Positions 1 through 12,325 of a DNA stretch of 21,394 nucleotides are shown in pieces (the stretch's first letter is position 1; each line of letters opens with the position of its first letter). The stretch lies in IMG/VR virus record IMGVR_UViG_3300006924_000248, positions 1-21,394 of that record; one strand, 5' to 3'. The translations under genes and the position numbers were made by a program. The DNA comes from a virus. A model generated the notes under the pieces. The model had not been told where the DNA came from. It made no database searches and saw nothing but the letters and a program-made list of their open reading frames with translations.

Positions 1-269
1 ATTCTGGAAACAGTAATCATAAGAAACTTTACACAGTAACAAGAGTACAAGATAATTCAACTTACTATAGTGGCGAATCTCAACCTTCAGCCTCTCAATA
101 CCGAATCTATTGTTCCCCAAATATTTTATATGATGTAACAGACAGTTCGATTTTAAAGTTTGAATCACCGGAAATAAGAGTAATTCAATCAGGAGATGTT
201 AGAGAATATAGCCTAGGAACAAATAACTTATATAGTTTTTCACTTAATTTAGAAGAGGCTTTACCATAA
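1..269 (+). CDS. C-terminal end of an unidentified tail protein (5' partial)
   Basis: An open frame enters from the left edge (first whole codon at base 3) and ends at TAA 267-269, giving 88 residues. They are polar and rich in Tyr, Ser and Asn, with alternating hydrophobic residues typical of beta structure, ending ...SLNLEEALP. I do not recognise a family in this fragment. Its stop overlaps the start of the gpJ-like gene by one base (TAATG), so the two are translationally coupled. In lambda-type gene order the gene just before gpJ is a minor tail or tail-assembly protein, so a tail role is likely, but only by position. An AGAAGAGG tract at 251-258 inside it is the likely ribosome site for the next gene. 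Confidence 0.75.
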   Translation, partial: SGNSNHKKLYTVTRVQDNSTYYSGESQPSASQYRIYCSPNILYDVTDSSILKFESPEIRVIQSGDVREYSLGTNNLYSFSLNLEEALP

Positions 270-3200
270 TGGCAACCGAAAGAGATATAAATAGTACAAT
301 TAGATCTATGCTTATAGATAATGAAGCATTTGAATACGCACACCTAATAAAATTTGAAAGACCTCAATTACCTGGTGCTAATAATACATTTTCAACAAAT
401 GCAAATAGATTCGCATATATCACAGATGGAACTAGAGACCTTTCTTTTGATGATGGCTCTACTAATGATGCGGGTTCGGCCAATGGTACACAAATATATA
501 GAGCTAATAAACTTTTAAATATATCAGGGTATAAAGAAAGTATACAAGCAAAAGCTGATACAATGACACTCACCTTAGCTTCTGAAGTATTAGGTACTAC
601 GGTACCTGCTAATTTAACTTTTACAAGTAATACAATTACTACCAATACTGTAGGAGTTGACTTTGTAGAAGAAGGTTTAAAAGAAGGAGATAAAATAAAA
701 TTAGAAGCTAACGATGGAGCTGGGTCAAATCATAATAAACATTTTCTAATTACAGGATTCTCAAATTCAAATCAAAGTATAGCAATAGAAACTTTAGATG
801 ATTCTTTTACTGCAAATAGTACTGGAGAGCTTTATAATGTATCTATTCAATCAGAAGAAATTAAAGGGCCTCTACTCGCTAGAGGTACAGATTTAGCTAA
901 TCCAAGTTTTTTAAATAAAAATGTTGAAGTACATAAAGTATTCCTTGACCCTGAAACAGGTCAAATAAAAGGAAATGCAAGTATATTAATATTTAAAGGA
1001 TTAGTCACCAAAGCTAATATAACAGAAGATCCTACTAGGTCAAGTAGAGTTCAATGGACACTAAGTAGCCACTGGGCAGATTTTAATAAAGTTCAAGGAA
1101 GAATGACATCTGATGAAATACATAGAGCTTTAAATGCTAGTGGTAGTCCTCAGAGAGACGCAGCATTAAAAAAAGAATACGCAGATGATATGGGATTTAT
1201 GCACGCAGATACAAGTGTAAATCTTGTTGCTACCTATAAAGAAAAGTATCAAGAAATGGAAGTAAAAACTTCTAAGCACGGGTTGTTTGGTTTAAAAACT
1301 AAAGTCCAGACAAAGATGGTAGATAAAGTTAGGGATAGAGATGTCGACTTAAAAGTTGATTTAGTGTCTAAATATCTTCCTGTTGTATATGGTGTTCGTA
1401 GACTTCCTGGTATTCCTGTATTTGCAGACACTCCTTCTAATGACCCAGATACACTTTATGTTCTCTACGCTATAGCGGAAGGAGAGGTAGAGGCTATATA
1501 TGATATCTATATTGATGGAGAGCCTTTAGTATGTTTAAATAAAGAAGACCAAGATAGTAGAAGCATTACAGGAAGTAATGCGGATAGTAGTGGAGTTTTA
1601 TGTGCGGGTAGGGCAGATAGAGGAGAAACAATTAGAGGAACTAGTAGTTACTCGTCAAGTTTACAAAATTATGCTACAGGAAAGCAATCGAAATTTAACG
1701 ATACTGAAAGAGCTTTTGATAAAAACTTTTATGACCAGTATGATGTACAAGAAATCGATTATTTAGTAGATTCAGGAAGTTATTATGACTATTATAACTC
1801 AGGTAGTGCTACATCTTATACTGGAAACACTCAAAATACTGTCGGTATAAGAGACGGACAAACATTTCAAATAAGCGTTCCACAACCTATTAAATTATGG
1901 TTTCATGCAGGAAAACACGACCAAACAGCAAACTCAAAACTTATAGATATAGCAACAGGAGCAACAAAATTTAAACGCCAATTAGACTACTTTAATAACT
2001 CAAATGGAGAAGAGTATTGGTCAACAAATCATAGATTACTAGACACAGCATATGTACTAGCAGAAATAACTGTAACAGAAGAAAACTCTGATATACCAGA
2101 ACTGGAATTTGTTGTTAGAGGTAGAATACACGAAGGGTATAACTATGACTTTACGTATAGACATGATGATAAAGCATATTCAAGTGAAAGCTCTGCTAAT
2201 TTTACTTTAGGAGAGTCAGTAACTTTTTATAGAACAAGTGATGATACAGCTTTAAATACCACTACAGTAAGAGATGTATATGAAGAAACGGATCCAAGAA
2301 CAGGATTAGTTTATAGTAAGATTAGATTTGCAGATAGACCTTTTAATTCTACTAATTTTACTTATGTAGATGGAGCACCAGTACATACTGAATTTTATGC
2401 AAAAGATTCAAGTAATAATATGTGGCACATGCTAACTTGGAACCATAACGATATAGATAGTTCAGATGCATATTTACCTAATCAAGGGTCTAATATTTCA
2501 AATATTGCAAGAAACTCTTCTACAGGAAAAATAGAATTGAGTGTTGGAGATACTAATTTAAGTGGAGAGACAAAATTCAAAATAGTAGGTACAGGTAGTG
2601 GACAATTAGAAGATATTGAAAATTCTACCCTTACAGGAACCTACTCGAACCAAGTAGTAACTTTAGATGTCTACGTAGGTACTTTATCTGGAAGCGACAC
2701 TATTTCTAGTGGCAGACTTATTGGAGCTAAACAAGTTAAATTGCCTTCATCTGCTTCTTCTACAGATGATTTCTATAACGAACAATTTATTGAAATAACT
2801 TCAGGTCAAGGTGTCGGAGAGAAAAGAAGAATTACTGATTATAATGGTACTACAAAAGTTGCTACTTTAAAAACCAATTTTATTGACCATCCTAATGGAA
2901 GCAGTGATTATAAAGTATTTGGAAGAGGAAGTGATTTACGTTCAGGTAATAACCCAGCACTACACACATTAGACTACTTAACAAACGCAACTTTTGGAAA
3001 AGGTTTAGAACTAGAAAAAGATATTGCTTTAGATACTTTTACTAATTCAGCAAGAACTTGCGATTCACGTTCAGATGTTACTATAGCAACTACTTCTTCG
3101 CCAACAGTCGGAGATGAGTATATATTAACAGATGATGGAACAAGTTCTGGAAATATACTTGCAAGAGGAAAAATTAAAAGCTCTACATTAAATGGAACAC

Positions 3201-6200
3201 ATTATTCAGTAGTACTAGAAAATGTTATAGGACAATTTCAAAGAATATGGCAAAAATGGATATACTACGAAGTAGGGGATATTATTTACACAAATTCAGG
3301 AGATTTATTCAGAGTTCCTTCTTCAAAAGGTAATGGATATATTGACGTACAGCCTACAAATGGAAGCAGACAAGGTTTAAGTTTTATAAACAATATTACA
3401 TTATATAAAGCAAATTCTTTATCAACTACTCTTACAACCTTTGGCAAAAAGTATATAGAAAACTATAGTTTATATGACTCTGATTTCGTGCAGTATTGGA
3501 GATGGGTTGGTTGGGAACACGATCATCAAAGGTGGTGCACTCGACACCAAATGAATTTAGTAGTTGAAACAAGCACTTCTGTCTTTCAAAATACTACTAA
3601 TATATTAGAGCATTTCAATGGGATTCTTAGTTATTCAAATGGAAACTATGAACTAGAAGTAGAAGCGCAGGAAGATTCTCCTAGCGATAATAGTCCTTAT
3701 CATATAAAATATGAGGATATACTAGGTTCTTTGAAAGTTACTGAAGACCCGAGCAGAAAAAGTTTTAATACTATAAATGCAAGTTTATCAGATCCTGGAA
3801 ACAAATGGTCTAGTACTTCTGTTGCTTTTTATAATTCAAACTTTGTAAAATCAGATAGGAATGTAGTAAAAACAGGAAATTTACAGTTCTCTGGAATAAC
3901 TAACTATTGGAATGCAAGAATAAATGCAGAAAGATTTTTAACAGAATCTCGTTTTCCTTTACAAATATCTTTTACTACAATGCCAAAGGGCGTAATATTA
4001 AAAGCAGGACAAGTATTAAAAATAGACTATGATAGATTTGGATGGAGCAATAAACTTTTCCGTATACAAGACTTATCTATAAATCCAGATTGTTTGGTAA
4101 ATATTTCAGCAGTTGAATATGATGATTCAATGTATCTAATATCAAATACAAGAACATCAGCAGTAAGTAGTACAGAAAATCCAGGAGCTCCTGGTACAGG
4201 CACTCCTACAGCTCCTACAGCTTTATCTGGTTCTACAGATAAGCAAGGAGTTTCAATACTTACGTGGTCAAATGCAAGTAATTTTATTAACTCAAGTGAC
4301 TCTACAGAGATTTGGGCTTCTGACGATAATAACAGATCAAATGCTGAAAAAATAGGTGAAGCAGACAACGAAACTACATTTAACCACGCTTTAGGTGAAG
4401 AAGCAGCAAAGTACTATTGGATTCGACATAAAAGAGTTATTTCAAAAAGAAAGTCAAAACAAAAGACAACAATATTTTCAGCATACCATCCAAGTGGTAC
4501 AACAGCAGGTGTTCCTGCCACAGCTAAATCTCCAGCACAAATAACAGTTAACTTAACAAATCCTAGCATGACCTTGCAACAAACAAACGCAGGTTCTATA
4601 AATTATGCTGCAACTGGAACTGATATTCAGGTTATACTTGGAGAAAATATACTTACAAATGACCAATCGGGCAGTCAAGCAAATAGTAGCTTTAGAGTTG
4701 CAGTTTCTGCTGCAAATATTACAGCAGGTTCAGAAAGTACTGTTAATGATGCAAACGGAAATGCAACAATATTTAGAATAGGAAATCACGGTAATGCAAC
4801 TACAGACACTCCTGTAATCACTTATACGATTACAGTAAAAGACGGAGTAGGCTCAACAACAACTTTAAATCGTTTTCAACATTTTGCAGTTGCACAAGAT
4901 GGAGCACCGGGAGATGACGGCTTTACAATTACAGGTACAAATACAAATCATACTTTTACGGGAAATAGCACAGGAGCTGCAAGTGCTACAGGATTTTCTT
5001 GTGACTTTGTAATCAGAGAAGGCGCAACTACATGGACATATGACGGCTCCTCTCCTTACTCTTCTAATTCTTATAGATACGGTTCTTTAACAGATTCAAA
5101 TGTTTCTTCTAGTGTTGCCTCAGATGGCACTATTACAATTGCTTCAAATTCTGCACTTCTATCTGGAACATCAACAGTAACAGGAAGTATAATCGTACCA
5201 ATTTATGATAATTCAGATAACACTTTACTTACTACTGCAGTAATTAGTTTAAACAAAACTATAGAAGGATTAGATGGGCAAGACGCAAAATCTGTACGAC
5301 TATCTGCAAGTTCTTTAGTATTTACTGAAGCAAAGAATGGAACTTTAAGCCCAAGCTCAATAACTCTTACCGCCAACAGACAAAATGTCTCGAGCAGTTC
5401 CAGTTTTAGTACTAGTCCAAGTGTAACCTTAACAGGTAGTGGAGACACTAGAGCTTTATCTTCTGCAAATTTTGGGTCAAATGACTCAGTAACAATAACA
5501 GTAAGTGCTGACACAGTTTCAGACACAGTGACTCTTGTTAGAGTAGAGGAAGGGTCTGACGCACTTACAATTGTAAATTCAAATCCTGCACATACTGTTC
5601 CTGCTACAAATACAGGAGTTGTTAATTCAGGAAATCTAACAGGAAGTGGCACTACTATAAAAGTATTCGAAGGAGCTACTGCACTAGATTATGACGCCAG
5701 CGGTACAACAGCAGGGCATTGGACAGTATCTGCATCACAGAGCCCTAGTTCAACTCTTTCCACTACAAGCATTTCTGACAGTAGTAATGATGCAGTTGTA
5801 GCTAATTATACTTCAATGGCTACTGGAACAGATAATGTAGTAGTTACTTACACAATAACAGGTAAAAGATTGAATGGAGAAAATTTCTCTTTACAAACCT
5901 CACAAAGTATTGCTAAATCTAAAACAGGTACTGCAGGTGGGGCAGGAGTTCGTGGCGGAAGTATATTTACTTTTGAGGAGTCTACTACAAGTGGAATAAG
6001 CGCTTCAGATGCTTCTGACTTTGCAGGAACTTTAGATACTGGTACAGCTCGAGCAGTAGCAGCAGCAGTAATTGCAGCAGCGTCTGATGGCACAATAAGA
6101 CCAAATGATAGAATAACCGTAACAGATAATAGCGCAGATAAAGCAGGTACAAGAGTATATACAGGAAGTGCAACAACTTCATCTTCTTCTGTAGGAACAA

Positions 6201-6883
6201 GTGACTATAGTTCTTTAGTTGTAGAAACATTCAATGGCTCTGTGATTGTAGACGGAACACTATCTGCATCTAAATTAACAGCAGATACTACATTAACAAA
6301 CAATCTAAATGTTGGAAGCAACATGAAACTTTCTAGTGGAGGTAAATTCTTTTCACAAAATAAGACAAGTTTTACTGATACAGATGCAGGTTTCTATATG
6401 GACACTACAGGTGATTTTCATGCAGGAGACAGCGCAAGTTTTATTAAGTTTGATGCAAGTGCAGGAACAGTTGCAATAAAAGCTGATTCAATTCAATTTA
6501 GTTCTGGTACAAGTGTTTCAACTTTTGATGGAGCATATGGTAGTTTAAGTGGAGCACCTTCTTTATTCGATGGAGCATATGGGAGTTTATCCGGGACGCC
6601 TACTTTTGGAACTTTAACAATTAATGGTACAAGCTTTACTCCTACAGGGAGCAATGTGTCTATTACTCCCAGCGGTTTGGGAATTAGCACAAGTTATATT
6701 GAAGGCGAGCTAGGAGTAAGTAATATTGTAGGATTTGGAAACACAAATATTAGTGGAGGAAGAATAACTTTAACTGGAACAACTATGAACTTCAATACTA
6801 CCAGTAGTTCTACAACAATAAGCACTGGCGGCATAGATATAAATGCTTTTACACAACAAATTATAATTTCGGACGGTTCATAA
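269..6883 (+). CDS. gpJ-like tail tip / host-specificity protein with extra hub-like N-terminus, FN3 and Ig-like repeats
   Basis: This 2204-residue protein probably forms the tail tip that contacts the host. Residues 1 to about 330 resemble a distal-tail/hub domain (FKGLVTKANI..., then GRMTSDEIHR and DDMGF), usually seen in separate minor tail proteins. From about 372 the lambda J-type core begins (VVYGVRRLPGIPVF, then YAIAEGEVEAIYDIYIDGEP), with NPALHTLDYLTNATFGKG in the middle and HFNGILSYSNGNYELEVE near its end. A fibronectin-III-like domain lies at about 1312-1400, followed by Ser/Thr-rich Ig-like repeats separated by short Gly linkers (GAPGDDG, GLDGQDA, GTAGGAGVRGG). Residues about 1988-2085 match the central-fibre motif of J proteins (GSVIVDGTLSASKL...GFYMDTTGDFHAGD). 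Two YGSLSG(A/T)P repeats follow. At roughly twice the length of lambda gpJ it is a fusion or expanded version. The start follows AGAAGAGG and overlaps the upstream stop. J identity is confident; individual domain limits are approximate. Confidence 0.88.
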   Translation: MATERDINSTIRSMLIDNEAFEYAHLIKFERPQLPGANNTFSTNANRFAYITDGTRDLSFDDGSTNDAGSANGTQIYRANKLLNISGYKESIQAKADTMTLTLASEVLGTTVPANLTFTSNTITTNTVGVDFVEEGLKEGDKIKLEANDGAGSNHNKHFLITGFSNSNQSIAIETLDDSFTANSTGELYNVSIQSEEIKGPLLARGTDLANPSFLNKNVEVHKVFLDPETGQIKGNASILIFKGLVTKANITEDPTRSSRVQWTLSSHWADFNKVQGRMTSDEIHRALNASGSPQRDAALKKEYADDMGFMHADTSVNLVATYKEKYQEMEVKTSKHGLFGLKTKVQTKMVDKVRDRDVDLKVDLVSKYLPVVYGVRRLPGIPVFADTPSNDPDTLYVLYAIAEGEVEAIYDIYIDGEPLVCLNKEDQDSRSITGSNADSSGVLCAGRADRGETIRGTSSYSSSLQNYATGKQSKFNDTERAFDKNFYDQYDVQEIDYLVDSGSYYDYYNSGSATSYTGNTQNTVGIRDGQTFQISVPQPIKLWFHAGKHDQTANSKLIDIATGATKFKRQLDYFNNSNGEEYWSTNHRLLDTAYVLAEITVTEENSDIPELEFVVRGRIHEGYNYDFTYRHDDKAYSSESSANFTLGESVTFYRTSDDTALNTTTVRDVYEETDPRTGLVYSKIRFADRPFNSTNFTYVDGAPVHTEFYAKDSSNNMWHMLTWNHNDIDSSDAYLPNQGSNISNIARNSSTGKIELSVGDTNLSGETKFKIVGTGSGQLEDIENSTLTGTYSNQVVTLDVYVGTLSGSDTISSGRLIGAKQVKLPSSASSTDDFYNEQFIEITSGQGVGEKRRITDYNGTTKVATLKTNFIDHPNGSSDYKVFGRGSDLRSGNNPALHTLDYLTNATFGKGLELEKDIALDTFTNSARTCDSRSDVTIATTSSPTVGDEYILTDDGTSSGNILARGKIKSSTLNGTHYSVVLENVIGQFQRIWQKWIYYEVGDIIYTNSGDLFRVPSSKGNGYIDVQPTNGSRQGLSFINNITLYKANSLSTTLTTFGKKYIENYSLYDSDFVQYWRWVGWEHDHQRWCTRHQMNLVVETSTSVFQNTTNILEHFNGILSYSNGNYELEVEAQEDSPSDNSPYHIKYEDILGSLKVTEDPSRKSFNTINASLSDPGNKWSSTSVAFYNSNFVKSDRNVVKTGNLQFSGITNYWNARINAERFLTESRFPLQISFTTMPKGVILKAGQVLKIDYDRFGWSNKLFRIQDLSINPDCLVNISAVEYDDSMYLISNTRTSAVSSTENPGAPGTGTPTAPTALSGSTDKQGVSILTWSNASNFINSSDSTEIWASDDNNRSNAEKIGEADNETTFNHALGEEAAKYYWIRHKRVISKRKSKQKTTIFSAYHPSGTTAGVPATAKSPAQITVNLTNPSMTLQQTNAGSINYAATGTDIQVILGENILTNDQSGSQANSSFRVAVSAANITAGSESTVNDANGNATIFRIGNHGNATTDTPVITYTITVKDGVGSTTTLNRFQHFAVAQDGAPGDDGFTITGTNTNHTFTGNSTGAASATGFSCDFVIREGATTWTYDGSSPYSSNSYRYGSLTDSNVSSSVASDGTITIASNSALLSGTSTVTGSIIVPIYDNSDNTLLTTAVISLNKTIEGLDGQDAKSVRLSASSLVFTEAKNGTLSPSSITLTANRQNVSSSSSFSTSPSVTLTGSGDTRALSSANFGSNDSVTITVSADTVSDTVTLVRVEEGSDALTIVNSNPAHTVPATNTGVVNSGNLTGSGTTIKVFEGATALDYDASGTTAGHWTVSASQSPSSTLSTTSISDSSNDAVVANYTSMATGTDNVVVTYTITGKRLNGENFSLQTSQSIAKSKTGTAGGAGVRGGSIFTFEESTTSGISASDASDFAGTLDTGTARAVAAAVIAAASDGTIRPNDRITVTDNSADKAGTRVYTGSATTSSSSVGTSDYSSLVVETFNGSVIVDGTLSASKLTADTTLTNNLNVGSNMKLSSGGKFFSQNKTSFTDTDAGFYMDTTGDFHAGDSASFIKFDASAGTVAIKADSIQFSSGTSVSTFDGAYGSLSGAPSLFDGAYGSLSGTPTFGTLTINGTSFTPTGSNVSITPSGLGISTSYIEGELGVSNIVGFGNTNISGGRITLTGTTMNFNTTSSSTTISTGGIDINAFTQQIIISDGS
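6524..6607 (+). repeat. Tandem 42-bp in-frame repeat at the C-terminus of the gpJ-like protein
   Basis: Two adjacent 42-base units (6524-6565, 6566-6607) encode FDGAYGSLSGAPSL and FDGAYGSLSGTPTF (residues 2086-2113). The YxSLxGxPT pattern is a common phage fibre motif. The DNA copies differ mostly at third codon positions, so the duplication is not brand new. Confidence 0.85.
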
Positions 6884-7005
6884 TGGCGAGACGAGTATTA
6901 CTAGGAAAAGAAAGTGGGTCTGATTTTGTATTAAAAATTTCAAAGCCAGGAGATGACATAATTGATGATACTATCAATGATAGAGACTTATTATTTAATT
7001 CAGAA
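6883..7005 (+). repeat. M-x-RRVLLGK N-terminal module, copy 1
   Basis: First of three copies of a roughly 41-44 residue N-terminal module: MARRVLLGK, then (I/V)SK.G.D(I/V), then DLL(F)(N/D)S. It is the most diverged in its middle (IIDDTINDRD in place of the NSSGV stretch in copies 2 and 3). The first 27 bases are nearly identical in all copies. Confidence 0.85.
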
Positions 7006-9966
7006 ATATATCGAGCAGGAATTATTCGTTCCAATACTAGTTTTACTTCTTTAGGTTCAGGGTCTTATAAAACTTTTGAAAGTACTACAGATGCAAACGG
7101 CAATCATTATATTCCTGCATATTTAATTTCAGAAAATGGAACACAGTTTGCAACCGCAGTATTTGACTATGGGTATGCATCAGTTACCTCTGGCGAAGAC
7201 TATTATGGTAGAGTAGTGGCAGGCCTTCCTACGGGTGGAGGGGGAGGTCTTTATGAGTTCAGTCTCGCAAGTTCAGGCAGTAATAGAAATAGATTAAAAT
7301 TACAATATATAAATATTGCAGATGCAGATGACCCAAGACCTGGACAAAACACAGGATACCCTTTTATAGAAGATAGAAGTTTATCAACTTCTGATAGTGT
7401 TACTGTAAAAGTAGACATTTTAGGTATTCCTTGTCAGTATGGAAAAATGGTAAATAATACTACTGTTTTTGGAAACTCTTTATTAACAGGAACTGCTTCA
7501 GGAGGAGGAGGAGGTAGTGGAGGCACAGTTTCTGCACCAGCAGATCCCACAGTTACTTTTGTATCAAGAACTTCTACTGTAGACAACTTGACAGTAACTT
7601 CAACAGCAGGTACAGGTAACACAGCAACAATTCAATTTATAGCAACAACTGCAGTAAGTCCTGTACCTAATATAGCAGCTTCCGGTTGGCAAACTTCAGG
7701 CAGTTTTACTCAACCTAGAGGAACTACTAGATGGTATTGGGCTAAACAAGGTAGTTTTGTCTCAGATGTAAATGCTCAAGGCGGGTATGTTTCTCCTGCT
7801 TATGATAATACTCCTACTGCTTTTGATTTAGGAGGACCTCAAACTAATGCAGCTCTTAATACATATTTTCAATCTGCTGAAATTACAGTAGCTGGACTAG
7901 ATAATTCAGATTTTGCACTTGTCTCAGTAACTGGAGCTCAATTAAGTAAGAATCAAGGAGCCTATACAACAAATGGCACTATAGCAGTAAATGGAGATGA
8001 TTTTAGAATAAGAGTGCTATCCAGCTCTTCTAATGGTACCTCTACATCAGGAACTTTAACTATTGGAACAGTGAGTGACACATATCAAGTAAGTACAGGA
8101 CAAGATACAACAGTTGATTCTTATGACTTTACAAATCAAAACAGCTTAGAATTAAGTACTTTAGTATATTCAAATACTGAAACAATAACAGGGATCAGCA
8201 CAGGCGTCAGTGTATCTATTAGCGGAAATAGTGCTGAATTTAGTATAAATGGGGGAAGCTATGGAACTTCGGGAACTATTACAAATAATCAAACTTTAAG
8301 ATTACGAATGAATACGAGCGGAAGTTTTTCAACTAATACATCTACTACTGTAAATGTAGGCGGAGTTACAGATACTTGGACAATTACAACAAGAGGTCAA
8401 ACTCCTGTTACTACTCCAGGTTCTATAACAGCAACGCAAATTACGAATACAACGGCAACTGCACAAACAGTAGATGCAACAGCAGCTCATCAATTTTTAG
8501 GTTCAGGTACTTTACAAGTATCAAACAACAATTCTACTTACTCAGCGAATGGAACAGACTTTAGTCAAAATAGAAATACAACAGTAACTTACTATGCTCG
8601 TTCTTTAGGTGGAGACGGTAATACTAGTAGTACTATTAATGTAGATAAATTTGTACCTCCAGTTGTAACAGTGGGAGGAATAGGTAATTTTGTAGGATAC
8701 CCTGCAGCAGGATTTAATTATACTTATAGCGTATCTGTTCAGAGAGGTCAAGGAAACTATAATACATATAGCAGCTATTGGGGAACTACAACTACAAGTA
8801 TAAGCAATAATTCGGGAGGGTGGTTAAGTACTTCTATTACTAATTCTTCTGCCGGAAATTTTAATTTAACCGCAACAGCAAATACTACAGGAAGCGCACG
8901 AACAGCAACTGTAACATATACTACAAGTACTACTTTTGGTGCGTCACATACAATGACATTTACAGTAAATCAGTTAGCTCTTGACGGAGTTCCAGATCAA
9001 TTTACGTTTACAGATCTTACAAATCAAAGTCTAAGTTCTTTAGCTTATGCTTCTGCTACAATAACAGGAATTGCTACAACAGTAACAGCTTCTTACTCAG
9101 GGGATACTGGAGGATTTAGAATTGGAAATAGTGGCTCCTATACAACAGCGGATAAAACTTTAACAAATAATCAAGTAGTACAAGTACAGTTAAGTACTTC
9201 TGCGAGCCATGGAACAAGTACTAATGCTACAATAACAATAGGAGGAGTTTCAGATACTTTTACAGCAACTACTATAGCTGCAGATACTACTCCAAATTCT
9301 TTTACTTTTATTGACCAACCAGCTGCAGCAGCAAATACTTTAGTGTATACTAATATAATAACAATAGCAGGAATAAATACTTCTGTTACAGCTTCTATAA
9401 GTGGAAATTCTGCTGAAATGCAAGTTAATAGTGGTAGCTATACTTCTTCAAATCAAACAATTTCAGTTGGAGATACAATACGATTGAGAATGACTTCAAG
9501 TGCTACTGCAGGTGCTACAGTAAATACTACTTTAACTGTTGGAGGAACCTCAGATACTTGGTCAGTTACAACTACAACAGCAACCCTTCTTTGGTCAGTA
9601 GGATTAGCTCTTGGAAGTTTTAGTGCTTTTGGATTTCTATCTCAAGGATTTAGTACTTATATAGGAGGAGGTCATGGAACTGCAACTGATACTTCTTGCG
9701 ATTTATATAATGGTCAAACTACATGGGGATTTAGTGACCAAGAAAGCTCTGCACAAAATACGTTTTTTCATGTAAGTGGAGTAACCTCTAACTCTGGTTG
9801 GACGACTTTAAAAATATATAATGGAACAAGCAACTCTGCTACTCTATTAGCAACAAGAACAAGATCTTCTTTAACTTATAGTAATTCAGGAGGTAGTTTT
9901 GCAAGTTGGGATATGGGTTCTGATCTTACAGGCGGAACAGGTAATTTATTTTTGGAGTTCTTTTAA
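6883..9966 (+). CDS. Large tail-tip adhesin-like protein: M-x-RRVLLGK module plus tandem Ig-like and BACON-like repeats
   Basis: This 1027-residue protein begins with the MARRVLLGK...SKPGDDI...DLLFNSE module (residues 1-41) also present on two small proteins downstream, probably a tail-docking element. Two glycine linkers (GGGGG at 118-122; GGGGGSGG at 207-214) bracket a compact segment. Four repeats of about 95-100 residues follow (about 313-410, 414-508, 704-803, 804-900), each built as DF/FTF..., ITGI.T.V, SGNSAE, INGGSY, LRLRM, TVGG.SDTW.V. Between repeats 2 and 3, residues about 600-700 (GGWLSTSITN..., ...RTATVTYTTST..., MTFTVNQ) resemble a BACON domain, a carbohydrate/mucin-associated Ig-like fold. 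The last 125 residues form a different globular-looking domain (WSVGLALGSF...FLEFF). No enzyme motif is seen. A surface adhesin on the tail is the best inference. The start overlaps the gpJ stop (TAATG) without a strong Shine-Dalgarno, implying coupling. Confidence 0.75.
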   Translation: MARRVLLGKESGSDFVLKISKPGDDIIDDTINDRDLLFNSEIYRAGIIRSNTSFTSLGSGSYKTFESTTDANGNHYIPAYLISENGTQFATAVFDYGYASVTSGEDYYGRVVAGLPTGGGGGLYEFSLASSGSNRNRLKLQYINIADADDPRPGQNTGYPFIEDRSLSTSDSVTVKVDILGIPCQYGKMVNNTTVFGNSLLTGTASGGGGGSGGTVSAPADPTVTFVSRTSTVDNLTVTSTAGTGNTATIQFIATTAVSPVPNIAASGWQTSGSFTQPRGTTRWYWAKQGSFVSDVNAQGGYVSPAYDNTPTAFDLGGPQTNAALNTYFQSAEITVAGLDNSDFALVSVTGAQLSKNQGAYTTNGTIAVNGDDFRIRVLSSSSNGTSTSGTLTIGTVSDTYQVSTGQDTTVDSYDFTNQNSLELSTLVYSNTETITGISTGVSVSISGNSAEFSINGGSYGTSGTITNNQTLRLRMNTSGSFSTNTSTTVNVGGVTDTWTITTRGQTPVTTPGSITATQITNTTATAQTVDATAAHQFLGSGTLQVSNNNSTYSANGTDFSQNRNTTVTYYARSLGGDGNTSSTINVDKFVPPVVTVGGIGNFVGYPAAGFNYTYSVSVQRGQGNYNTYSSYWGTTTTSISNNSGGWLSTSITNSSAGNFNLTATANTTGSARTATVTYTTSTTFGASHTMTFTVNQLALDGVPDQFTFTDLTNQSLSSLAYASATITGIATTVTASYSGDTGGFRIGNSGSYTTADKTLTNNQVVQVQLSTSASHGTSTNATITIGGVSDTFTATTIAADTTPNSFTFIDQPAAAANTLVYTNIITIAGINTSVTASISGNSAEMQVNSGSYTSSNQTISVGDTIRLRMTSSATAGATVNTTLTVGGTSDTWSVTTTTATLLWSVGLALGSFSAFGFLSQGFSTYIGGGHGTATDTSCDLYNGQTTWGFSDQESSAQNTFFHVSGVTSNSGWTTLKIYNGTSNSATLLATRTRSSLTYSNSGGSFASWDMGSDLTGGTGNLFLEFF
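7819..9584 (+). repeat. Four imperfect Ig-like repeats of about 95-100 residues
   Basis: Protein repeats start near bases 7819, 8122, 8992 and 9292, with an unrelated spacer plus a BACON-like segment (about 8650-8980) between copies 2 and 3. Shared landmarks are ITGI, SGNSAE, NGGSY, LRLRM and VGG.SDTW. Copies 2 and 4 are the closest (SISGNSAE...GSY...RLRM); copy 1 is the most diverged. DNA identity is clearly lower than protein similarity, so these are old duplications. Confidence 0.75.
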
Positions 9967-10154
9967 TGGAAACTTTTAATAACAATGGACAATTATATGT
10001 AAGAAAAGTATATGATACAGATTTTATCATAGAAATTCCTGCAGTTTTAAATGAGGATGGCTCTTTGAACGAGTCTCAGACCACTACTAATTTAGACACT
10101 ACTTATGAAATTCATAAGGTGAATAAGGAGACATATGAAACTTATACATCATAA
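9966..10154 (+). CDS. Small unknown tail-region protein (62 aa)
   Basis: A 62-residue acidic, polar protein (METFNNNGQLYVRKVYDTDF...). I recognise no family. It starts on the last base of the preceding stop (TAATG) with GGAG at 9954-9957, eight bases upstream, so expression is well supported. Its 3' end overlaps the next gene by 20 bases in a different frame, with the next gene's ribosome site inside it. The first half alternates hydrophobic and polar residues (LYVRKV, FIIEI), suggesting beta strands. The second half is Thr-rich (TTTNLDTTYEIHKV). Position between adhesin genes suggests a small virion or assembly protein; a leader fused to the next protein by frameshift is conceivable but less likely. 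Confidence 0.6.
   Translation: METFNNNGQLYVRKVYDTDFIIEIPAVLNEDGSLNESQTTTNLDTTYEIHKVNKETYETYTS
10125..10130 (+). promoter_or_regulatory. Ribosome binding site AAGGAG for the Hint-like gene
   Basis: AAGGAG lies four bases before the ATG at 10135, inside the upstream reading frame. It fixes the start of the 128-residue protein and argues for independent initiation rather than frameshifting. Confidence 0.7.
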
Positions 10155-10521
10155 TTCTTTAATAAATATTCCTTATTCCTTGCAAAAGTATGTAAAATCT
10201 TTTCAGCAGTGGGACAAAATTCATGCTTTTAATATTGAGTCTGCATTGAGTTACGAAGCATTTCTATCCGTATGTGAATCAAATAAAATTATGGGAAATT
10301 ATTATATTATAAATAGTAGTCTAAAGGCTAATAAAAATTTACAAATTAAGACATTCGAAGAGTGGAAAACAGTAGGCACTCTTAAGATTGGAGATTATAT
10401 TTTTAATGATAATTATAAATATATAAAAGTTGATAGTATAGAACAAGTTTCAGAAAGTGTTGAAGCAGTTGAAATAGAAACAACAGCAAATTATTTTTTA
10501 GAGAGGTATTTAGTAAAATGA
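10135..10521 (+). CDS. Small protein with a degenerate Hint (intein/hedgehog-like) domain
   Basis: A 128-residue protein. From about residue 54 it follows the pattern of Hint domains found in phage tail proteins: YYIINSSLKA (56-65), a block-B-like stretch (65-73), EEW (75-77), LKIGD (83-87), VDSIE (99-103), VEIET (112-116) and NYF..RYLV (119-127). Known Hint/intein proteins carry T-x-x-H in block B and end in His-Asn before the extein. Here the block-B position reads N-K-N-L and the protein stops after LVK, so both catalytic features are missing and splicing or self-cleavage is unlikely. The N-terminal 50 residues (one Cys, C47) are not recognised. It sits between adhesin genes, overlapping the previous gene by 20 bases and the next by ATGA. 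Family assignment is my pattern reading, without a profile search; an unrelated small beta protein remains possible. Confidence 0.5.
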   Translation: MKLIHHNSLINIPYSLQKYVKSFQQWDKIHAFNIESALSYEAFLSVCESNKIMGNYYIINSSLKANKNLQIKTFEEWKTVGTLKIGDYIFNDNYKYIKVDSIEQVSESVEAVEIETTANYFLERYLVK

Positions 10522-10649
10522 GTAGACGAGTATTATTAGGTAAAATTGATAGTAATGACCATGGATTACTTATTTCAAAAGTAGGAGTAGACGTAATAAA
10601 TAGTTCAGGCGTTGTCGCAAATAAAGATTTATTAGTCTTTGACAGTCGT
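10518..10649 (+). repeat. M-x-RRVLLGK N-terminal module, copy 2
   Basis: Second copy of the module, sharing the RRVLLGK start, SK.G.DV.NSSGV centre and LL.FDSR end with copy 3. It is closer to copy 3 than to copy 1. Confidence 0.85.
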
Positions 10650-10979
10650 GAAAAAGGGTATGCCCAGGTTATTGCAAGAGGTAGTACAACTGTAACACGT
10701 ACTGGTTCAAATGCAGGTACATCTACGGTCACTTTTTCAACTGTAGCAATTCCTAATGCTGTAGTAATTACTTATCCTGATGATAATATTACAAATTCTC
10801 CATATTATGAAATAACTTCAGTAAGCACTACAGCAGTACAGTTTACAGTTCCTGCAACATATGCGGATTTTTCATCTATATATGGAGTTAATTTTAGTTA
10901 TTTTCAGAATTTCGGTAGTGGAACAAGTACTCCAACTTCTACAACAATAAACTATATAGTTTTAAGGGGGCATGCATAA
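10518..10979 (+). CDS. Small M-x-RRVLLGK tail protein (153 aa)
   Basis: A 153-residue protein. Residues 1-44 are the shared module (MSRRVLLGK...LLISKVGVDVINSSGV...LLVFDSR). The rest is a Thr/Ser-rich beta-type body (GSTTVTRTGSNAGTSTVTF, then NAVVITYPDDN and YYEITSVSTTAVQFTV) ending in IVLRGHA. This body differs from that of the next gene, so only the N-terminus is shared. The start ATG overlaps the upstream TGA (ATGA) and has GAGAGG at 10501-10506. Proteins with this N-terminus occur in phage tail regions; the module is probably an attachment element and the body a small tip decoration or adhesin. No catalytic motif is seen. Confidence 0.7.
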   Translation: MSRRVLLGKIDSNDHGLLISKVGVDVINSSGVVANKDLLVFDSREKGYAQVIARGSTTVTRTGSNAGTSTVTFSTVAIPNAVVITYPDDNITNSPYYEITSVSTTAVQFTVPATYADFSSIYGVNFSYFQNFGSGTSTPTSTTINYIVLRGHA

Positions 10980-11107
10980 TGGCAAGACGAGTATTATTAG
11001 GAAAAGCGGGAAGTGACCAAGGATTTTTTGTATCTAAATCAGGTACCGATGTTGTAAATAGTTCGGGTGTTTTAACAGGCGGAGAGAATTTACTATTTGA
11101 TAGTAGA
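10979..11107 (+). repeat. M-x-RRVLLGK N-terminal module, copy 3
   Basis: Third copy of the module. The first 27 bases match copy 1 (6883) at nearly every position, and the NSSGV stretch matches copy 2 (10518). Confidence 0.85.
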
Positions 11108-11587
11108 GTAGGGATCGGGAGCTTGCCTCTTAAATTCCATGGAGAAGGGTTACTAGGAGTACCACCTAATGTGGGCAATAGTTCGGGTCAAAGTATTCAA
11201 ATCGAACAGGAATTTGTTAGTAGTACAAAAGCTACAATTACACATAATTTAGGGTATAAACCATATTGCATAGTACAATGGTGTTTTCAATCAGATTTAG
11301 ACTCTAATGGTATTGCAACAAAAATGTACCCAGTAACTCACACAAACTATCAATTAGAAGCAGAACAATCCGACTATGGACAAAGAATAGAAGAGTTTAG
11401 AACTGAAGGAGTTCTAGGGGTGTGGTATGAAGTAACTACTACACAGTTAATAATTTATAATAATATGCAAGGCGAATACGGCTACGAAACCCTAGATAAT
11501 GTAGTGCAGTATACTCAAGGCGTTAGTGGAAGGTCTATAGCATACGCATTTTTAATTTTTGATGTACAAGGAGTAGATACAATATGA
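10979..11587 (+). CDS. M-x-RRVLLGK tail protein with LGY tail-fibre motif (202 aa)
   Basis: A 202-residue protein with the shared module at 1-43 (MARRVLLGKAGSDQGFFVSK...NLLFDSR), then a Gly/Pro linker (GEGLLGVPPNVGNSSG) and a folded-looking domain containing ATITHNLGYKPYCIVQW. The H-x-LGY-x-P strand pattern is common in phage tail-fibre and distal tail proteins. The remainder (WYEVTTTQLIIYNN..., ...AYAFLIFDVQG) alternates strands and polar loops. The start overlaps the preceding stop (TAATG) and follows AAGGGGG at 10964-10970, a strong ribosome site. It is probably a virion tip or collar-like decoration attached by the same docking module as its two paralogues. Function beyond that is not readable. 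Confidence 0.7.
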   Translation: MARRVLLGKAGSDQGFFVSKSGTDVVNSSGVLTGGENLLFDSRVGIGSLPLKFHGEGLLGVPPNVGNSSGQSIQIEQEFVSSTKATITHNLGYKPYCIVQWCFQSDLDSNGIATKMYPVTHTNYQLEAEQSDYGQRIEEFRTEGVLGVWYEVTTTQLIIYNNMQGEYGYETLDNVVQYTQGVSGRSIAYAFLIFDVQGVDTI

Positions 11588-11989: not shown

Positions 11990-12325
11990 ATGTCAGCAGG
12001 AAGCTACAATTTCACATTAGAACAGGGAGCAACATTAGACAGAACTGTTACAGTACAGGAAAGTGGCTCGGCTATGGATTTGACAGGATATACTCCAAGA
12101 ATGCAAGTTAGAAGTACACACGATTCTTCAACTGTATTACTTACTGTAACTTGCAGTATTGCTAACGCTTCAGGAGGTATAATACGTCTACAAGGCAGTG
12201 CAAGTACTACAGCTTCTATTGAAGAAGGAATATACGTATACGACTTAGAAATTGAGTCAAGTACTGGAGTTGTTACTCGTTTATTACAGGGTAATGTAAC
12301 AGTCACTCCAGAAGTAACAAGATAA
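11990..12325 (+). CDS. BppU N-terminal-like phage protein (111 aa)
   Basis: A 111-residue beta protein matching a widespread small phage family related to the N-terminal domain of baseplate upper protein BppU. Landmarks in order are YNFTLEQGATLDRTVTVQ (6-23), MDLTGYTPRMQVRS (29-42), GGIIRL (63-68), EEGIYVYDLEIES (78-90) and VTRLLQGNVTVTPEVTR at the C-terminus. The family is usually found just before or within fibre modules and is thought to act as a connector or baseplate component. It is the first gene after the consensus promoter and has its own strong ribosome site. The full family length appears present. The next gene begins one base after its stop. Confidence 0.75.
   Translation: MSAGSYNFTLEQGATLDRTVTVQESGSAMDLTGYTPRMQVRSTHDSSTVLLTVTCSIANASGGIIRLQGSASTTASIEEGIYVYDLEIESSTGVVTRLLQGNVTVTPEVTR

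Follow-up and report, generated by a model that had tools for sequence, protein, structure and literature searches.

Introduction

Hint domains are self-cutting or splicing devices, and at the C-termini of phage tail proteins they are common and little studied. In phage tail gene clusters, some fibres have an assembly protein of their own encoded directly behind them, as is the case for Tfa and gp38. The residues associated with self-processing of Hint domains are Cys1 or Ser1, the Thr at block-B position B7, the His at B10, a penultimate His and a terminal Asn (PMC4031507). S74 domains, located at the C-termini of tail fibres, release themselves by autoproteolysis and help the tail protein from which they derive to fold (PMC7824862). 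A literature search, conducted largely outside subscription journals, found no paper on dead or free phage-tail Hint domains; tail Hints themselves are known, and the new part, as judged from sequence, would be a free and fully dead variant of them.

The DNA analyzed here, referred to as the window, is a whole stretch of 21,394 nt, positions 1–21,394 of the IMG/VR virus record IMGVR_UViG_3300006924_000248. Phages related to the window phage are marine. The original prediction, made from the sequence alone, described a stand-alone, catalytically dead Hint-like protein of 128 residues at 10135–10521; the ORF is present there, together with all of the motifs quoted for it.

Genomic context of the Hint gene

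The Hint gene is situated in a tail gene cluster on the + strand. A J-type central tail protein of 2204 aa (269–6883, +; PHROG 31 'central tail fiber J', E 1.1e-23) is followed by a large repeat-containing tail fibre of 1027 aa (6883–9966, +; PHROG 4924 short tail fiber, E 5e-16), which precedes the Hint gene. Between the fibre and the Hint gene lies a 62-aa ORF without an assigned family (9966–10154, +), which overlaps the start of the Hint gene and has a dN/dS of 0.18 against contig L003; it is conserved, and a 184-aa ORF occupies its place in L038 and L039.

The gene for the free-standing Hint protein, which is without canonical catalytic residues (10135–10521, +; 128 aa, ATG start and TGA stop), is preceded by a Shine-Dalgarno-like AAGGAG read from the sequence four bases before its ATG (10125–10130, +), and similar sites also precede its homologues. 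Its TGA overlaps the ATG (10518–10520) of a short fibre-type gene located directly 3' of it (MSRRVLLGK..., 153 aa; 10518–10979, +). A second short fibre-type gene (MARRVLLGK..., 202 aa; 10979–11587, +) and a 108-aa ORF separate this gene from a conserved tail-cluster gene that served as a synteny marker (11990–12325, +; PHROG 1084, with a weaker match to 'L-shaped tail fiber protein assembly'). No Rfam elements were found near the Hint gene.

Identification of the Hint domain

Scans of the 128-aa protein against Pfam, PHROG and NCBIfam returned no Hint match, and weak library matches (E 0.002 and above, to unrelated families) were treated as chance. When the family profile was searched against PDB sequences, the Tetrahymena BIL2 (6y75, 6tmm) was matched over its full length, with an E-value of only 0.24. 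A DNA pattern for GG-C-F-x-x-G-T-x-V led to about 80 phage loci, and a canonical profile was composed of 38 non-redundant phage Hint domains, which were not chosen by similarity to the window protein. In a search of 9,421 ORFs this profile matched all homologues of the window protein (E 8e-10 to 5e-6) and, through the L001 copy, the window sequence itself (E 3.3e-8). Profile–profile comparison of the family with canonical Hints by hhalign gave 98.2% probability over 125 columns. The homology spans residues 1–128, the N-terminal half with the Cys1 position included; the Hint likeness originally placed at residues 54–127 is thus confirmed, whereas its restriction to that segment is not. The 128-aa protein is almost certainly a complete Hint domain without the canonical catalytic residues, hereafter a dead Hint. 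Of the two Pfam models run on the related contigs, Hint_2 found nothing and Intein_splicing detected a true Hint in G016; its one other match, a weak one in G021 to an unrelated-looking 160-aa ORF, was dropped.

AlphaFold modeling with 44 aligned sequences gave a pLDDT of 95.8 and a pTM of 0.88; canonical Hint rows were included in this alignment, and the model and the profile evidence are not independent. The six family sequences alone gave a pLDDT of 35, and this second model was not used for claims about the fold; confidence in the fold therefore rests partly on the canonical rows. A structure search of the PDB retrieved 43 matches with E under 0.001, all of them inteins, BIL domains or hedgehog proteins, the best reaching a TM of 0.86–0.87. 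The best structural alignment was with BIL2 6y75 (Z 18.6, rmsd 1.6, 127 of 128 residues), and across inteins, BIL domains and hedgehog Z was 13–18.6 over 117–128 residues. In the model, the fold is the all-beta disk characteristic of Hint domains. Profile search and structure prediction, the two checks proposed together with the original prediction, thus both returned Hint, by match and by fold.

Among viral models the best match, with a TM of 0.93 along the entire protein, was A0A218MLH4 from BFVD, which is an uncharacterised 132-aa protein from an uncultured virus. It is 26% identical to the window protein and was matched through its predicted model only; on this modeled similarity, the two probably belong to the same family. 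A weak fold match pointed to Lactobacillus phage P1, in whose first 50 kb the profile detected no Hint.

Catalytic positions

Residue 3 of the model aligns with residue 1 of RecA inteins and with residue 258, the first, of hedgehog 1at0. By structure alignment, the position of the intein nucleophile Cys1 corresponds to the Leu3 codon of the window gene (10141–10143, +) and is Leu or Ile in all homologues; alignment A3 puts Met1 at this place, and neither placement yields a Cys or Ser. As originally noted, block-B T-x-x-H is replaced by N-K-N-L and the terminal HN is missing. In alignment A3 the replacing residues are N66-K67-N68-L69 (codons 10330–10341, +), which gives N and L at B7 and B10 in the window pair, and other homologues have E together with V or L. 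The protein ends in YLVK, and sequence, alignment and structure place Lys128 at the penultimate-His position, directly before the TGA (10516–10521, +), with the terminal Asn absent. All seven distinct sequences of the family end in Lys at or next to the His-Asn position and have no terminal Asn.

Overall, C1, T, H or N was kept in none of the seven distinct sequences. Among canonical domains, C1, T, H(B10), H(G6) and N are each present in 36–37 of 37; C1 and HN were partly used in selecting these domains, whereas the block-B T (36 of 37) and H (37 of 37) were not. Only one or two residues precede the domain and none follows it, which leaves nothing in cis to cleave. The missing catalytic residues lead us to predict that the free Hint protein is catalytically dead. 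The initial reading of a Hint fold kept without catalysis is in agreement with the canonical profile, hhalign, the AlphaFold model and the PDB matches, taken together with the absent catalytic residues.

Homologues and selection

A direct search returned four contigs with homologues of the window Hint protein, distant copies of 20–25% identity were recognized among the ORFs of syntenic loci fetched via neighbouring genes, and further scans added one more contig. The sequences include an identical copy of the window Hint in L001. All relatives except Phage NCTB are metagenome viral contigs, mostly fragments; tblastn of the window protein in the phage collection gave chance-level matches only, and no relative emerged when bacterial and archaeal genomes were scanned with a degenerate pattern. 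A free-standing Hint of this size had been called unusual, and the present survey shows that it is not unique: the gene occurs in nine other IMG/VR contigs, which with the window amount to seven distinct sequences, and a partly dead free Hint is present in Phage NCTB.

The seven distinct sequences form one clade in the tree (100/100 support). In the loci mapped, the gene is preceded by the large fibre, and its end overlaps the start of an RVLLGK-type short fibre, which lies directly downstream of it in the homologous loci read. Five pairs of Hint genes gave dN/dS values of 0.31, 0.14, 0.12, 0.18 and 0.06, with Fisher tests at P 0.011 to 2e-15 for four of the five. The frame is open in all copies, and neither the relaxed selection nor the broken frame of an intein pseudogene was seen. 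Because dN/dS is 0.06–0.31, the copies form one clade and the gene position is shared, the gene is not a decaying pseudogene; the substitution pattern indicates that it is under purifying selection and kept rather than decaying.

Fused tail Hints and probable gene fission

The search for homologues that retain both T-x-x-H and the terminal HN, proposed earlier as a point to check, led to collinear loci in which such a Hint forms the C-terminus of the J-type tail protein. In G016 (the contig of L026), which has the same downstream genes as the window, the J protein comprises 2858 aa and its C-terminus reads SGGGGGG-CFISGTKV...TPGH...LVHN; Pfam Intein_splicing detects its Hint at E 3.5e-6, below the curated cut-off. 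The window J is homologous to this 2858-aa J-Hint protein (E 6e-158), and J-Hint proteins of several loci align to it. The order J-Hint, one gene, PHROG 1084-like gene, MAxT gene and MAQTIKIKR gene in L087, L101, L109 and L142 matches the window by eye. The repeats at 795–895 and 409–508 of the window's large fibre resemble the repeats that immediately precede the Gly linker and the Hint in fused proteins of several loci. In collinear loci, a single ORF encodes J, repeats, Gly linker and an active-looking Hint, and the genes downstream of it are the same as in the window.

Just before the ATG of the free Hint, the L014 fibre ends in ...GVSDTFRVTTGSSPGGGL and the L015 fibre in ...TGNFGGGGIE. 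In L014, L015 and L040 alike, the fibre closes with its last repeat plus GGGL or GGGGIE, and the Hint ATG lies within a few bases. The repeat–Gly–Hint string that forms one polypeptide in some phages is therefore found as two genes, with nearly the same breakpoint, in others. Two observations count against a simple division: the window fibre has no Gly-rich end, with about 130 extra residues and the 62-aa ORF before the Hint, and in full J-Hint phages the Hint is carried by J itself, not by a separate fibre. Fibre and Hint are in different frames in L014 and L015, which implies that more than a point (stop) mutation was involved. Fusion of fibre and Hint by ribosomal frameshifting was set aside, because the copies are provided with SD-like sites and inspection by eye revealed no conserved slippery site. 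At about 8120–8141 of L014, the Gly-rich fibre-end codons (GGAGGAGGT) double as the Shine-Dalgarno sequence of the Hint gene, an arrangement that may ease fission at Gly linkers.

It is very likely that the free Hint descends from a fused tail-protein Hint, and it seems fairly probable that gene fission fixed the cleaved state. The suggestion that the protein is a remnant of an intein-like tail protein thus holds with respect to descent, given the collinear fused loci, but not with respect to decay, given the purifying selection.

The loci can be arranged in a series from fused and apparently active (G016, L101) through fused without HN (G004) and free but half dead (NCTB) to free and fully dead (window). 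The 399-aa protein of G004 keeps C and TEDH and ends in LLVDSEI, without HN. In G012, the Hint at the end of the J protein is truncated. Proteins with a C-terminal Hint-like domain that has Cys and T-x-D-H and is without the terminal HN are also encoded at L182 (782–2149, -; 456 aa, contig of L013) and L183 (1001–2197, +; 399 aa, contig of L012), both from the same phage group. In L047 (1860–2543, -), L181 (1764–2411, -) and L142 (4658–5308, +), a protein of 216–228 aa that resembles GNAT acetyltransferases by eye directly follows J-Hint, with the tail or its processed end as a possible target of modification.

Proposed role and alternative explanations

We hypothesize that in the ancestor a J/fibre tail protein consisted of repeats, a Gly linker and, at its C-terminus, the self-cleaving Hint. 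Gene fission at the linker/Hint junction would have produced a separate gene starting at the old cleavage site and stopping before HN; with the cleaved state hard-wired in this way, Cys1, the block-B Thr and His, and the Asn would have become free to be lost. The dead Hint would then be translated from its own ribosome-binding site inside the fibre gene cluster and may act as a non-catalytic partner of the preceding fibre, either as a trans-acting assembly or folding factor or as a cap, which would bind to the C-terminal region of this fibre. Taken as a whole, a fission-derived dead Hint serving as a non-catalytic fibre partner is the best explanation, in which our confidence is about evenly balanced. 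Conversion of a self-cleaving tail Hint into a separate, purely structural or chaperone protein, with fission replacing autoproteolysis and the binding function kept, falls just short of that balance; if this were the case, fused tail Hints would also bind or aid folding, beyond cutting. The assembly or capping role itself is proposed more tentatively, and the argument for an assembly factor is one of position: the dead Hint comes directly after its fibre, which fits the place of fibre assembly proteins. The S74 domains provide an analogy for such a role.

A role as a virion adaptor fits almost as well as that of an assembly partner. Here the dead Hint would be a small tail-tip subunit that remains part of the particle as a rigid adaptor, joining, for example, the large fibre to the RVLLGK-type short fibres. 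The location of the gene between fibre genes and its overlap with the next one in the homologous loci read, the purifying selection, and the compact fold predicted with high confidence are all consistent with such a subunit; however, no sign of an attachment sequence or an oligomerisation region was seen, and we consider it rather unlikely. The overlap may also be read at the level of DNA: the ORF would be a by-product whose protein has no role and which is kept mainly because its 3' end supplies the next fibre gene with a ribosome-binding site and a start. In every copy checked, the gene and its successor overlap by ATGA, which agrees with this, as do the C-terminal codons (GAGAGG in the window) at the expected SD place of that gene. 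Such a by-product is nevertheless improbable, as dN/dS is low across the whole gene, a complete domain survives among homologues only 20–25% identical, and the Hint gene has an SD site of its own.

Two further explanations would link the protein to Hint chemistry. The target of the dead Hint could be a second, active Hint of the same phage, whose autoprocessing it would inhibit, time or join as a partner, and the NCTB free Hint does lie beside two proteins with apparently complete Hints; yet no second Hint was found in the 4.7–48.7 kb contigs with the dead form, which are fragments, and we regard this possibility as very unlikely. Still less credible, to the point of being hardly tenable, is that the protein has retained a cleaving or ligating activity based on unusual chemistry, in the manner of class 3 inteins, which do without Cys1. 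Some inteins tolerate the loss of a single conserved His (PMC7664689), and a Cys is located near block F in five of the seven homologues. Here, however, the block-B His, the terminal Asn and Cys1 are all absent, almost no flanking sequence is available for cleavage, and the F4 column of block F holds Glu, Ile or Ser rather than the Cys of class 3 inteins; a class 3 intein without the F4 Cys and the B10 His was inactive (PMC3196547). The non-catalytic fibre partner is the reading we prefer. A domain that has lost every catalytic residue and yet persists as a conserved gene uncouples catalysis from other function, and the dead-Hint lineage may provide a natural test of the purpose of C-terminal phage tail Hints.

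Comparison with known systems

Further groups of Hint-related proteins were encountered among the phage loci. Gly-C-F-x-x-G-T proteins in L050, L081, L085, L097, L100, L115, L140, L162 and L165 form a separate class without the terminal HN, ending ...SENRRILINGIEFTDYFE..., with a V-S-G-(S/T)-H-M block where the ORF is complete; they may be truncated or differently working Hints. In the viral contigs L053, L062, L068, L073, L091, L113, L114, L120, L123, L125 and L156, Hint/intein domains follow stretches like ...GADSIRVGIGGG, which resemble an IMPDH/GMP-reductase active-site loop; these domains are probably ordinary inteins in a nucleotide enzyme.

By fold, the closest solved structures are BIL domains, namely BIL2 of Tetrahymena BUBL1 (6y75/6tmm) and the Clostridium thermocellum BIL (2lwy). 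These domains cleave or ligate and have host-protein sequence on their flanks, in which the window Hint differs. The fused tail Hints (L026/G016, L057, L087, L101, L102, L109) share with the window Hint the same domain, the tail cluster, a related J part and the repeats, but they keep Cys1, T-x-x-H and HN, whereas the window Hint is a separate gene with none of these. Like a J-type tail Hint, the window Hint is found in the J/fibre cluster with the same downstream genes; unlike one, it is not part of the same polypeptide.

Phage NCTB (LT598654) encodes a free 153-aa 'intein domain protein' (SBV38304.1), which lies between tail fibre genes, as the window Hint does, and is likewise without Cys1 and the block-B His; in contrast to the window Hint, it keeps the block-B Thr (VTGY) and the terminal HN. 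Its neighbours are two tail fibre genes on one side and, on the other, a 506-aa tail protein that also has a Hint fused to it, and the phage also has a 1304-aa protein with a fused Hint. Its grouping with the window clade is weak (91/71, long branches). The Arsp-FB24 Arth_1007 intein pseudogene is, like the window Hint, inactive, nearly free-standing and without the conserved catalytic residues, including the block-B His (PMC3196547); for the window protein, inactivity is a prediction. Arth_1007 is, however, a single inactive intein that was called a pseudogene (PMC3196547), whereas the Hint described here is represented by seven distinct sequences under purifying selection, with a fixed position in the tail operon.
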